A stretch of 64,000 bases of DNA from Limnohabitans sp. Rim8 (GTDB lineage Bacteria; Pseudomonadota; Gammaproteobacteria; Burkholderiales; Burkholderiaceae_C), in the NCBI GenBank assembly GCA_945897465.1, contig CAMDFK010000001.1:124001-188000 (forward strand), read 5' to 3'. Made by a program: the position numbers and the translations under genes. Shown piece after piece: positions 15,916-19,664 of the stretch; position 1 is the first letter of the stretch, and each line of letters begins with the position of its first letter. Under the pieces are notes generated by a model that worked only from the letters and a program-made list of their open reading frames with translations, was not told the DNA's origin and did no database searches.

Positions 15916-15936
15916 AAAAAGCCCCTTGCGGGGCTT
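15916..15936 (-). terminator. Rho-independent terminator after the BLUF gene
   Basis: On the minus strand AAGCCCC-GCAA-GGGGCTT forms a perfect 7-bp stem with a four-base loop, followed by TTT. It lies 15 bases after the BLUF stop and directly before the EamA start. Confidence 0.75.
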
Positions 15937-15951: not shown

Positions 15952-16374
15952 TTAGGCCCGGCCGATGATGGAGGCTGTGGCCATCAGCTCTTCGAGCAAG
16001 GCCAACGAGACTTTGCCCGACACGTTGTACGGGTCCAACTCGGCCCGCTCGGAGTACTTGAGCAAGATGTTGGTGTTGACGCGTGACGCATCGACCTGGC
16101 CCATGGTCCAACCGCCAAAGCGGCGCTCGGATATCTCTTCATAATGCAGCAGCACCACATCCTTGTGGCGAGCGTCTTTCTGAATGTGGCCGTACAACTC
16201 GCTCACCGCGATGCGACCGCCTTCGATGGCTTGCAGAAAGATGCCGCCGCCGTAGCAAAGAATCCCGGTGATGCCGCTGGTCGGGTTGTACTGGCGCGAC
16301 TGGGCCAGGATGGATTCGATCGTCTCGGGCCGCGGATCGACCGTGCGGCTGGCGTAAAGCAGGCGGACCAACAT
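15952..16374 (-). CDS. BLUF-domain blue-light photoreceptor
   Basis: 140 residues made of a single BLUF domain (sensor of blue light using FAD) plus a short helical C-terminal tail, with no attached output domain. The key flavin-site residues are all visible: Y7 in LLYAS, N30 in the NPTSGITGIL stretch, Q48 in FLQAIEG, and W89/M91 in GGWTMG. It should therefore bind FAD and show the usual light response. Stand-alone BLUF proteins signal through a partner protein. The start is three bases after the folE stop, with GGAAGGA as ribosome site inside folE, so it is translationally linked to GTP cyclohydrolase I. The partner and output are unknown. Confidence 0.95.
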   Translation of the reverse strand: MLVRLLYASRTVDPRPETIESILAQSRQYNPTSGITGILCYGGGIFLQAIEGGRIAVSELYGHIQKDARHKDVVLLHYEEISERRFGGWTMGQVDASRVNTNILLKYSERAELDPYNVSGKVSLALLEELMATASIIGRA

Positions 16375-16377
16375 GGC

Positions 16378-17106
16378 TCAGTTCCTTCCGGGAATCAGTG
16401 ACAAAAATTCACGGCGCAGGTTGACGTCTTTGAGAAATGCCCCGCGCATGACCGAATTGATCATCTTGCTGTCCATGTCCTTCACGCCACGCCAGCCCAT
16501 GCAGTAGTGGCTCGCTTCCATCACGATGGCCAGGCCATCGGGCTGGGTTTTGCGTTGGATCAGATCGGCCAGTTGCACCACGGCCTCTTCCTGGATCTGG
16601 GGACGCCCCATGATCCATTCGGCCAGTCGGGCGTACTTGGACAGGCCAATCACGTTGGTGTGTTCGTTGGGCAAGACACCGATCCAGATTTTGCCGATCA
16701 CCGGGCAAAAGTGGTGGCTGCAGGCGCTGCGCACGGTGATGGGGCCGACGATCATCAGCTCATTGAGGTGCTCGGCATTGGGGAACTCGGTGATCTCGGG
16801 GCCTTCCGCATAGCGGCCCTTGAACACCTCCTTGAGGTACATCTTGGCCACTCGGCGGGCGGTATCACCCGTGTTGTGGTCGTTGACGGTGTCGATGACC
16901 AGGCTGTCGAGCACGCCCGCCATCTTGTCGGTGACTTCGTCGAGCAGCTTTTCCAACTCGCCGGGCTGGATGAATTCGGCGATGTTGTCGTTGGCGTGGA
17001 AGCGTTTGCGGGCCGCCTGGATGCGCTCGCGGATCTTGACGGAAACGGGAACGCCTTCGTCTTCGGTTGGGGCAGCAGAAGCAATCATGGCGTCTGGGAA
17101 TTTCAT
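16378..17106 (-). CDS. folE: GTP cyclohydrolase I
   Basis: Converts GTP to 7,8-dihydroneopterin triphosphate, the first step of tetrahydrofolate synthesis. The 242-residue enzyme has the zinc site in SACSHHFCPVIG (Cys and His) and the second zinc cysteine in HYCMGWRGVKD; GLSKYARLAEWIMGRPQIQEE is the conserved catalytic segment. The start is uncertain: ATGs at 17112, 17106 and 17088 are in frame and none has a strong ribosome site; 17106 is used. Downstream is the BLUF gene; upstream on the same strand are clsB, an EEP nuclease and nudB, whose product acts on the FolE product. Confidence 0.95.
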   Translation of the reverse strand: MKFPDAMIASAAPTEDEGVPVSVKIRERIQAARKRFHANDNIAEFIQPGELEKLLDEVTDKMAGVLDSLVIDTVNDHNTGDTARRVAKMYLKEVFKGRYAEGPEITEFPNAEHLNELMIVGPITVRSACSHHFCPVIGKIWIGVLPNEHTNVIGLSKYARLAEWIMGRPQIQEEAVVQLADLIQRKTQPDGLAIVMEASHYCMGWRGVKDMDSKMINSVMRGAFLKDVNLRREFLSLIPGRN

Positions 17107-17197
17107 TAACATGGGAACGATCGTACCAGCGATTGATCGGCGCACACCGATCAGGGGTTTGGCCCTGCGGACACCTTTTACGCCCCCATGCAGCCCT

Positions 17198-18424
17198 TCA
17201 GTACCGGTGGCCCGTCAGGAAAAGCGCCAAGCGCATCAGGCCAAATGCCAACCGGTCGCGCCAACGCTGATGCCAATGCCTTTGGCTGAGCGTGGCGGAA
17301 ATTCGGGTACTTTGCGCATCGATCACCTGGTTCAAACGCTGGTGCAGTTGCTGCGCAAACAAGCGGTCGGCCACCACCACATTGGCCTCTCGGGCCAGCA
17401 ACAAACTCAGCGGATCCAGGTTGGACGAGCCCACTGTGGCCCAGGGGCGCTCATGGTCGGGGTCCACCACGGCCACTTTGGCGTGCAAAAAACTCGCGTT
17501 GTATTCGTAAATTTCCACCCCAGCGGCCATCAAGGTGCCATAGACCGGGCGAGCCGCATGGTATTGCATGAAGTATTCATAACGCCCTTGCAACAACAAG
17601 CGCACACGCACCCCCCGCCGTGCAGCATGCACCAAGGCCTGACGCAGCCTGCGACCTGGCAAAAAATAGGCGTTGGCAATCAACACTTGATGCCGGGCCA
17701 GTCCAATGGCCTTGAGGTAAGCGCGTTCGATTTGACTGCGGTGCAACACGTTGTCGCGCAGCAGCAAAGCGGCCCGACTCGGCGGTGCGGAGCCATTGGG
17801 CAAGGGCAGTGACTGCTTCCAAGCCACGGGCAGTCCCGCGGATTGGAAAGACCGCAGCGACTGCGCAAGTTTGCGTTCACGCGCGTGCTGTGCGCCCTGC
17901 AAGCGCCACCATAGCTGGGTCATGCTGTTTTGAATGTGGCCCACCAGCTCGCCTTGCGCAACAACGGCAAAGTCCAACCGGGGCTGGGCCAAGTGGCCGT
18001 GGTGCGGATCGTACCAGTCGTCCAAAATGTTGATGCCGCCACAAAAGGCGGTATGTCCATCCACCACACACAGTTTGCGGTGCAAGCGCCGCCAACGGCT
18101 GGGAATGAGCAAACCCAGAGTGCCCAATGGCGCATACACCCGCCAATCGACCCCCGCTTGGGCAAAGCGCATGCGCCAGACCTCCGGCAGCTGGGGGGTG
18201 CCTACGCCGTCAACCACCAACCACACACGCACCCCGCGCAAAGCCGCCCGCTCCAGCGCCGCGGCCACCGTGGCGGCAGCGCCATGCACATCAAAAATAT
18301 AGGTCTCAAGTAACACATGCGAGTGGGCCTGGTCCAGTGCCGCCACCAGTGTTTCAAAGTATTGCTGCCCCCCCTCAATGAGGCGGATTTGATGGCCGTC
18401 ACGCAGCGCCGGGTTGTGCCGCAT
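17198..18424 (-). CDS. clsB: Cardiolipin synthase B-type phospholipase D family protein
   Basis: 408-residue enzyme with two phospholipase-D HKD motifs: HRKLCVVDG (H115, K117, D122) and HAKVAVVD (H314, K316, D321), followed by GSSNLDPLS. This is the pattern of ClsB, which forms cardiolipin from phosphatidylglycerol and another phospholipid at the inner membrane; no N-terminal membrane anchors are seen, unlike ClsA. ATG 18424 is preferred to an upstream TTG because it lies just beyond the stop of the EEP gene. The C-terminus is arginine-rich with a hydrophobic patch. Confidence 0.9.
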   Translation of the reverse strand: MRHNPALRDGHQIRLIEGGQQYFETLVAALDQAHSHVLLETYIFDVHGAAATVAAALERAALRGVRVWLVVDGVGTPQLPEVWRMRFAQAGVDWRVYAPLGTLGLLIPSRWRRLHRKLCVVDGHTAFCGGINILDDWYDPHHGHLAQPRLDFAVVAQGELVGHIQNSMTQLWWRLQGAQHARERKLAQSLRSFQSAGLPVAWKQSLPLPNGSAPPSRAALLLRDNVLHRSQIERAYLKAIGLARHQVLIANAYFLPGRRLRQALVHAARRGVRVRLLLQGRYEYFMQYHAARPVYGTLMAAGVEIYEYNASFLHAKVAVVDPDHERPWATVGSSNLDPLSLLLAREANVVVADRLFAQQLHQRLNQVIDAQSTRISATLSQRHWHQRWRDRLAFGLMRLALFLTGHRY

Positions 18425-18426
18425 GC

Positions 18427-19182
18427 TCAGTCGTCCCAAGCAAATTCGGCCACCAGCGGCAAATGGTCAGACATGCGCTGCCAGATGCGGCCCGAGGGCA
18501 CCATGGCGTGCACGGGCGTGAGGCCTCGGGCGTACACATGGTCGAGCTGGTTCAAGGGCAAGCGCGAGGGGTAGGTGGGCGTGGGCTGCTCACGCCACTC
18601 CCGAAATCCAGCCTGCGCCATGCGCCTGCCCAAGCCTGTGCCCCAGTCATTGAAGTCACCCGCGACCAGCACCGGCTCTTGGGAGGGAATCTCTTGCGCA
18701 ATGTGGGCCAGCAGCAACGCAACTTGGCGCACGCGGCTGGCGGGCACCAGCCCCAGATGCACCACCAGCACATGCACCACACGGTCCACGACCTCAACAC
18801 GGGTGTGCAAAAAACCACGTTGCTCAAAGCGGTGGTCCGAGATGTCACGGTGCTGGTGCGAGAGCACCGGCCAGCGCGAGAGCATGGCGTTGCCGTGTTC
18901 ACCGTGGCGCGTGACAGCGTTGGTGCGGTAAATGGCCTCATAACCCTCAGGCGCCAAATACTCGGCTTGTGGCTGGCTCGGCCAGTGCCTGAAATAAGCC
19001 GCCTCCCGGCGGTGCTCACGCCGAACCTCTTGCAAGCAGACGATGTCGGCATCCAGCTGCTCCACCGCATGGCCCAGGTTGTGGATCTCTAGGCGCCGCG
19101 CCGGACCCAGCCCCTGCACACCTTTGTGGATGTTGTACGTGGCCACCCGAATGACCGGGTGTTCGTGGCGCTCGGGCTTCAT
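18427..19182 (-). CDS. Endonuclease/exonuclease/phosphatase-family protein
   Basis: 251-residue EEP-fold hydrolase. Catalytic signatures are ATYNIHKG near the N-terminus, CLQEV (the metal-binding glutamate), VAGDFNDW (Asp and Asn) and the final SDHLPLVAEF (Asp-His). Substrates of this family range from DNA to phospholipids and inositol phosphates. The ATG at 19182 overlaps the nudB stop as ATGA. Its place immediately before clsB suggests a membrane-lipid role, which is an inference; several Burkholderiales appear to share the pair, from memory. Confidence 0.88.
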   Translation of the reverse strand: MKPERHEHPVIRVATYNIHKGVQGLGPARRLEIHNLGHAVEQLDADIVCLQEVRREHRREAAYFRHWPSQPQAEYLAPEGYEAIYRTNAVTRHGEHGNAMLSRWPVLSHQHRDISDHRFEQRGFLHTRVEVVDRVVHVLVVHLGLVPASRVRQVALLLAHIAQEIPSQEPVLVAGDFNDWGTGLGRRMAQAGFREWREQPTPTYPSRLPLNQLDHVYARGLTPVHAMVPSGRIWQRMSDHLPLVAEFAWDD

Positions 19183-19664
19183 GGCGGGTTGGTCGTTACA
19201 AATCGCGGCAACATCAAAATGGCTTCCGCGTTGGACGGGGAAAAGCACTGGTCAGCGGCCGCTTGCCAGGGCAACCATTGCGCATCGGTGTGCTCGCGTG
19301 GGCTGAGCACCACGGGCATGCGTTGGGGCACACACAGTCCAAAAACACGCTCGGTGTTGCGGCTCACACCCGGCGCATAGCGCCAGCGCCAGGCGGGGTA
19401 AATGTCGTACACGTTTTCCAGTTGCCAGTCTTTCAAGCGGCAGCTCGGGTGCAGAGCGTCAATGCCGGTTTCTTCCTGTACTTCGCGGATGGCCGTCTCG
19501 AGCCAACTTTCTGCGGGGTGGTCTTTGCTGCCCGTGACCGATTGCCAAGTACCCCAGTCGGCACGGCGGATCAGCAAGACATCTTGCTCAGGTGTGTGAA
19601 TGACCACCAGCACCGACTCCGGAATTTTGAAAGTCGCAGGCAATGCGGTCAGCGGATGCGTCAT
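19179..19664 (-). CDS. nudB: Dihydroneopterin triphosphate diphosphatase
   Basis: 161-residue Nudix hydrolase. The Nudix box runs from the glycine in TGSKDHPAESWLETAIREVQ through EETGI, and the surrounding YDIYPAWRWRYAPGVSRNTE segment is typical of NudB, which removes pyrophosphate from dihydroneopterin triphosphate in folate synthesis. The ATG at 19664 is favoured over a TTG two codons upstream. First gene of the nudB-EEP-clsB string, with folE further downstream on the same strand. Confidence 0.9.
   Translation of the reverse strand: MTHPLTALPATFKIPESVLVVIHTPEQDVLLIRRADWGTWQSVTGSKDHPAESWLETAIREVQEETGIDALHPSCRLKDWQLENVYDIYPAWRWRYAPGVSRNTERVFGLCVPQRMPVVLSPREHTDAQWLPWQAAADQCFSPSNAEAILMLPRFVTTNPP

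Follow-up and report, generated by a model that had tools for sequence, protein, structure and literature searches.

A conserved folE-BLUF gene pair in Limnohabitans and its relatives, and a candidate light-dependent regulator of GTP cyclohydrolase I

The gene folE, which encodes a GTP cyclohydrolase I belonging to a divergent subfamily, and that for a short BLUF photoreceptor form a conserved two-gene unit in Limnohabitans and its relatives. From the sequences, we give an even chance to the reading that BLUF serves specifically to regulate FolE in response to light. By analogy with characterised systems it would probably act on FolE by direct contact, which we likewise judge to be about evenly balanced. 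No report of a folE-BLUF pairing was found in the literature searched, outside which most subscription journals lie.

Organisation of the locus

The window, that is the whole stretch of 64,000 nucleotides analysed, belongs to a genome of 3.02 Mb whose closest named relatives, judged by FolE, are Limnohabitans. All five ORFs of the locus are present on the minus strand in the order nudB, EEP-family gene, clsB, folE and BLUF (Table 1). An earlier sequence-only reading of this DNA had described five minus-strand genes in a row with overlaps or short gaps, and the ORF coordinates agree: EEP overlaps nudB by ATGA, clsB begins 2 bp past EEP, folE begins 85-91 bp past clsB depending on the start chosen, and BLUF begins 3 bp past folE at the junction TGA-GCC-ATG. 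The same reading had placed the ribosome-binding site of BLUF inside folE, where a GGAAGGA motif is indeed located. From this spacing we infer that folE and BLUF would be transcribed jointly. A promoter scan of the locus found none.

Profile searches identified the families PLD, Exo_endo_phos, NUDIX, PF01227 and PF04940 along the string. NudB and ClsB both scored above their NCBIfam equivalog cut-offs, and for NudB the match to NF006961 upholds the earlier assignment of nudB to the step that follows FolE.

Table 1. Coordinates of the genes and putative signals of the folE-BLUF locus within the window
Feature	Position	Strand	Basis
nudB, dihydroneopterin triphosphate diphosphatase (folate step after FolE)	19179-19664	-	NF006961, 200.6 bits against a cut-off of 103
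EEP, endonuclease/exonuclease/phosphatase-family protein	18427-19182	-	PF03372
clsB, cardiolipin synthase	17198-18424	-	NF008427, 318.8 bits against a cut-off of 281
folE, GTP cyclohydrolase I, divergent subfamily	16378-17112 (alternative start ATG 17106)	-	PF01227, 4.1e-42
BLUF, stand-alone PixD-like protein, 140 aa	15952-16374	-	PF04940, 1.1e-28
Putative BLUF ribosome-binding site GGAAGGA, within the 3' end of folE	16383-16389	-	Sequence
GC-rich hairpin and T tail 3' of BLUF, possible terminator	15919-15936	-	Sequence, folding

A terminator had also been proposed directly after BLUF. A hairpin with a 7-bp stem followed by T's is present at this position, in keeping with that proposal, but it was not flagged by a scan for the terminator consensus and 39 of 200 shuffled sequences folded equally well (MFE -14.6 kcal/mol, z -1.04); it is a possible terminator. 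Among relatives, a perfect hairpin with a T-rich tail was found no more than 80 nt after BLUF in 34 of 219 sequences as against 3 of 219 after shuffling (one mononucleotide shuffle per sequence), so that in some cases BLUF visibly closes its unit.

The description of the sensor as fused into the gene string does not hold in the protein sense. A FolE stop codon precedes BLUF in all 252 pair loci (spacing of -1 bp or more), and no natural FolE-BLUF fusion was found among them. Of 222 distinct pairs, which comprise 221 distinct BLUF sequences, 153 have a distance from the folE stop to the BLUF start of -1 to +13 bp; the full range is -1 to 175 bp. A read-through or fused product was considered and rejected, as the two genes are in frame in 58 of the 222 pairs, under one third (P = 0.02), and the stop codons are mixed. 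FolE is the one constant neighbour of BLUF, and a tightly spaced one.

Conservation of the pair and turnover of its neighbours

A link between blue light and GTP cyclohydrolase I had been suggested from the window, with a comparison of folE neighbourhoods as the means of checking it. This comparison was run, and BLUF beside folE proved to be the rule in the family sample and to occur in 12 families of the order. BLUF follows folE in all 110 loci most similar by FolE, a set of 30 family loci and 80 named loci, in each case those ranked highest by FolE similarity, the window genome included. In a less biased sample of 130 family genomes representing 129 genera, 124 yielded a FolE match at 1e-20; BLUF lies directly after folE in 107 of these, three are at a contig edge and 14 are without it. 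A PF04940 match is absent altogether from 12 of the 14. Among the exceptions, G016 and G079 have other BLUF matches only, and the FolE of G032 is itself distant (42% identity).

Of 200 genomes sampled from the order, 41 carry this type of FolE (E up to 1e-40). Thirty BLUF orthologs were recovered at 114 bits or above, one per genome, the next matches scoring 108 bits or less. They occur in 30 of the 41 genomes with this FolE and in none of the 159 others (P = 7.7e-27, Fisher; the genomes are related and the presence tables ignore phylogeny, and the figure is descriptive). All adjoin folE except that of G270, where both genes are near the ends of two contigs (29/30). In the class sample the pair was present in four of five genomes with this FolE, and two of these (L176 and L177) belong to another order according to their kinship labels. 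The phylum sample gave 14 of 22, one of which (L357) is labelled as another class. The family, order, class and phylum samples overlap.

FolE without an adjacent BLUF was encountered in the 14 family genomes, in 11 of the 41 order genomes and in 8 of the 22 phylum genomes, which shows that FolE can do without BLUF. Genomes with this type of FolE and no BLUF beside it include G1063, G1007, G346, G280, G324, G978 and G1058. When mapped on the FolE tree, the presence of BLUF required 12 changes, against a mean of 26.9 and a minimum of 23 in 100 label shuffles.

The genes further upstream and downstream follow a different course. In those of the 80 named loci with enough flanking sequence, DUF429 accompanies the pair in 71/75, clsB in 65/76, EEP in 61/72, nudB in 48/70 and EamA in 29/75. 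In distant family loci, defined by a FolE score under 380 bits, the corresponding counts are 0/41 for DUF429, 0/47 for clsB, 0/36 for EEP and 0/41 for EamA, whereas BLUF is still in place in 37 of 44 (nudB was counted in the named loci only). The EEP gene and clsB are neighbours in closer relatives only. A conserved unit of five genes, the "pterin/phospholipid string" of the sequence-only reading, was rejected because clsB, EEP, EamA and DUF429 are all lost at this distance. Ten proteins encoded beside the pair at six distant loci were also inspected. They comprise CorA, DUF456, DUF480, a nucleoid-associated protein, two flavocytochrome c sulfide dehydrogenases and four that match no family; with that limit, no shared partner was found among them.

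These neighbourhoods bear on the possibility that BLUF is produced together with FolE yet targets a different protein, the pairing serving joint expression only. This would ask no more of folE and BLUF than a common promoter, and it has precedent in the short BLUFs with known partners, which act on regulators that are not enzymes: PixD on the response-regulator-like PixE in phototaxis (PMC5899715), and BluF of E. coli on the BluR repressor (PMC9758184). Against this, none of the window neighbours that were counted is kept beside the pair in the distant family loci and the ten proteins above include no common partner. In the order sample, moreover, the BLUF ortholog is confined to genomes with this FolE, which joint expression alone would not require. 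We consider a different target rather unlikely, and regulation of FolE by BLUF remains our preferred reading.

Features of the BLUF and FolE proteins

BLUF matched PF04940 with 99.6 bits (cut-off 25). This was its sole Pfam match, and the protein has no recognised output or DNA-binding domain. Lacking an output domain, BLUF is expected to work through another protein. The residues Y7, N30, Q48, W89 and M91 are present in the window BLUF; we take these (Tyr, Asn and Gln with the Trp and Met of strand 5) to be the flavin-site residues of the domain. That the site is intact, as claimed from the window, was confirmed there and across the distinct pairs, the first four residues being kept in 222/222 and M91 in 221/222. 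The length of BLUF is 138-147 aa in 221 of the 222 pairs. Its closest solved structures are the PixD proteins Tll0078 and Slr1694, and the alignment (4.7e-21) extends over residues 3-131 of 140, the C-terminal part included. By sequence, BLUF is thus of the PixD-like short type, a single domain with a C-terminal extension, and shares with both cyanobacterial references a short BLUF architecture carrying a C-terminal part.

Linked BLUFs formed a cluster with modest support (0.78) in a tree built from 70 of them and 24 other BLUFs. Two members of this cluster are labelled unlinked, L306, which is at a contig break, and L345, which has a long branch; L010, a linked folE-BLUF pair, also lies within it. 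A BLUF domain is carried by 222 of 250 sampled genomes of the family of Limnohabitans. To our knowledge, stand-alone BLUF proteins are common and few have known targets. The window genome encodes another short BLUF, which starts 10 bp after a crtB-like gene. This was considered as a parallel case and set aside, since the crtB-like gene was not within approximately 1.5 kb of the second BLUF in 4/4 relatives examined.

It may be asked whether folE and BLUF are chance neighbours, retained by common descent and without a functional link. A single origin of all pairs is possible and gene order can last for a while, but the other neighbours were replaced over an equal distance over which BLUF stayed, the flavin-site residues were kept throughout the 222 distinct pairs, and the crtB-like gene next to the second BLUF shows how such an adjacency may be missing in relatives. 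A chance neighbourhood is accordingly held to be very improbable.

FolE matched PF01227 with 144.1 bits (cut-off 27) and fell under the equivalog cut-off of TIGR00063 (146.9 against 181.6 bits). It is the sole PF01227 match in the genome, and a search of the genome for FolE2 gave no match; this FolE should therefore carry folate synthesis. The window protein has PF01227 and the active-site residues in common with E. coli FolE. The zinc-ligand and active-site residues, presumably C110, H112, H113, S135, R139, Q151, E152, H179, C181 and R185 in E. coli numbering, are invariant in 222/222 BLUF-linked FolEs. It differs from E. coli FolE in its position below the TIGR00063 cut-off and in having CSHH in place of CEHH, a substitution found in 256/256 FolEs of this type. 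As the serine also occurs in FolEs without BLUF, it does not mark the presence of BLUF. FolE matches of less than 200 bits or cut short were left out before the pairs and their residues were counted.

Four FolE positions (N155, D198, N225 and I127) are invariant in 223 BLUF-linked proteins and vary only where BLUF is absent, and D235 is replaced by Asn in 13 of 28 BLUF-less proteins against 10 of 223 linked ones (L156 and L272-L275, at contig ends or truncated, were omitted from this comparison). These positions are no more than a lead: they were picked post hoc, and the variation falls mostly in deep lineages and is confounded by phylogeny. Coevolution analysis of the 222 pairs, with an effective depth of 35 at 80% identity, gave top FolE-BLUF scores of 7.4, 6.8, 6.8, 6.8 and 6.8 sd. 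Ten partner swaps, in which shared ancestry is also broken, gave best scores of 5.3-8.5 sd and fifth scores of 4.8-5.8 sd.

Possible modes of light control

The stability of the pairing suggests that light controls the amount of folate precursor made. An association of light with folE is known from Pseudomonas, where folE is induced by light alongside phrB and cryB through LOV/LitR, with the gene of a blue-light flavin receptor in the same region (PMC9758184). This indicates that light and folate belong together elsewhere too. The Pseudomonas arrangement as described there differs in being transcriptional, in using a LOV rather than a BLUF receptor and a LitR/MerR-type regulator, and in its folM-folE-folX unit.

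BLUF could act on the folE transcript or promoter, an autoregulation that would pass through a transcription factor. The light control of folE transcription in Pseudomonas, although by another photoreceptor, provides a precedent (PMC9758184). No transcription-factor family was found among the ten neighbours at the six distant loci (four of the ten match no family), however, and BLUF has no recognised DNA-binding domain of its own. We regard this route as improbable, and to a slightly greater degree than the supply of photolyase antennae considered next.

It had been suggested from the window that light may raise folate for methenyl-THF antennae, and the pair could exist for a light-linked folate supply to photolyases and cryptochromes. 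Three genes of the photolyase/cryptochrome family are present in the genome, one of them over the DASH cut-off, and the joint induction of folE with phrB and cryB in Pseudomonas likewise speaks for this idea (PMC9758184). A PF03441 match is nevertheless absent from 11 of 107 genomes with the pair, 9 of these 11 being listed as at least 95% complete (the count covers PF03441, not the PF04244 type), and the association between the pair and PF03441 gave P = 0.21. A photolyase antenna is hence hardly the general reason for the pairing; the suggestion is weakened and appears improbable. Light-linked folate synthesis might also serve to replace photo-damaged folates or to limit photosensitising pterins in the light.

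For the preferred reading, direct action of BLUF on FolE, two structures offer a model. Crystals of PixD contain a decamer of two pentameric rings stacked on each other, and the protein releases its partner in the light (PMC5899715); human GCH1 is a D5 decamer with two pentameric GFRPs flanking the five-fold axis (PMC7750480). The five-fold symmetry shared by the PixD and GCH1 rings hints at a possible BLUF ring on FolE. The PixD-type BLUF would bind to a putative decamer of FolE and might sit as a ring on the five-fold face, in the manner of GFRP. Blue light would alter the C-terminal part of BLUF or its oligomeric state and so change the contact with FolE; the changed contact would move GTP cyclohydrolase I activity up or down, and dihydroneopterin triphosphate and folate would shift with it.

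The likeness to GFRP, that of a small non-catalytic protein proposed to sit on the FolE decamer, is by analogy only; GFRP was not one of the 22 PDB sequences that BLUF matched, and no sequence relation between the two was seen in that search. The inputs would also differ, being BH4 and phenylalanine for GFRP and light for BLUF. PixD in turn has PixE as its partner (PMC5899715), whereas the gene partner of the window BLUF encodes an enzyme of folate synthesis. The complete proposal is of a light-gated GTP cyclohydrolase I, in which a PixD-type BLUF ring on the five-fold face of FolE would be a light-sensing functional counterpart of animal GFRP and would place the first folate/pterin step under direct optical control in most sampled genera of one Burkholderiales family, that of Limnohabitans and Hydrogenophaga, as well as in some representatives of 11 or more other families. 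We put this forward tentatively, as a possibility of about one chance in three by analogy, and the ring version ranks below direct action of BLUF on FolE in general.

For the linked BLUF group there is one candidate target, constant and adjacent: the enzyme at the entry to folate synthesis. Were the proposed regulation true, it would represent a photoreceptor acting directly on an enzyme of primary metabolism and would offer a new optogenetic handle on folate and pterin flux. It would also partly explain why BLUF domains are found in so many of the sampled genomes of the family to which Limnohabitans belongs.

Photolyase/cryptochrome-family genes of the source genome

Three photolyase/cryptochrome-family genes (L145, L146 and L147) are carried by the source genome of the window on contigs C4 and C13, two of the three lying near each other on C13. 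The 439-aa protein scored above the cut-off for DASH cryptochromes, and the scores of the other two fell below all listed NCBIfam cut-offs.

A second short BLUF protein

The same genome encodes a second short BLUF protein, of 147 aa, at locus L001. A gap of 10 bp separates the start of its gene from a preceding gene of the squalene/phytoene synthase family (PF00494), which is crtB-like yet scored below the CrtB cut-offs, and upstream of this synthase-family gene lies the end of an amino-oxidase-family gene (PF01593). No PF00494 gene was found within approximately 1.5 kb of the relatives of this BLUF gene in any of the four examined.

Location of the features discussed
Feature	Location	Coordinates	Strand	Basis
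Second short BLUF and squalene/phytoene synthase-family gene	L001, contig C13	1357-2905	minus	family matches
folE	window	16378-17112	minus	

The CSHH-type FolE

At position 235, in the C-terminal FLKD segment of FolE, Asn replaced Asp in 13 of 28 proteins encoded without an adjoining BLUF gene versus 10 of 223 with one, a contrast that was picked post hoc and is confounded by phylogeny. In an alignment with human GCH1, this position presumably lies close to that enzyme's allosteric arginines. CSHH replaced CEHH in the FolE of the window and its relatives (256 of 256 examined), and the window protein scored below the NCBIfam FolE cut-off. GTP cyclohydrolase I of the CSHH type may constitute a distinct subfamily of its own.
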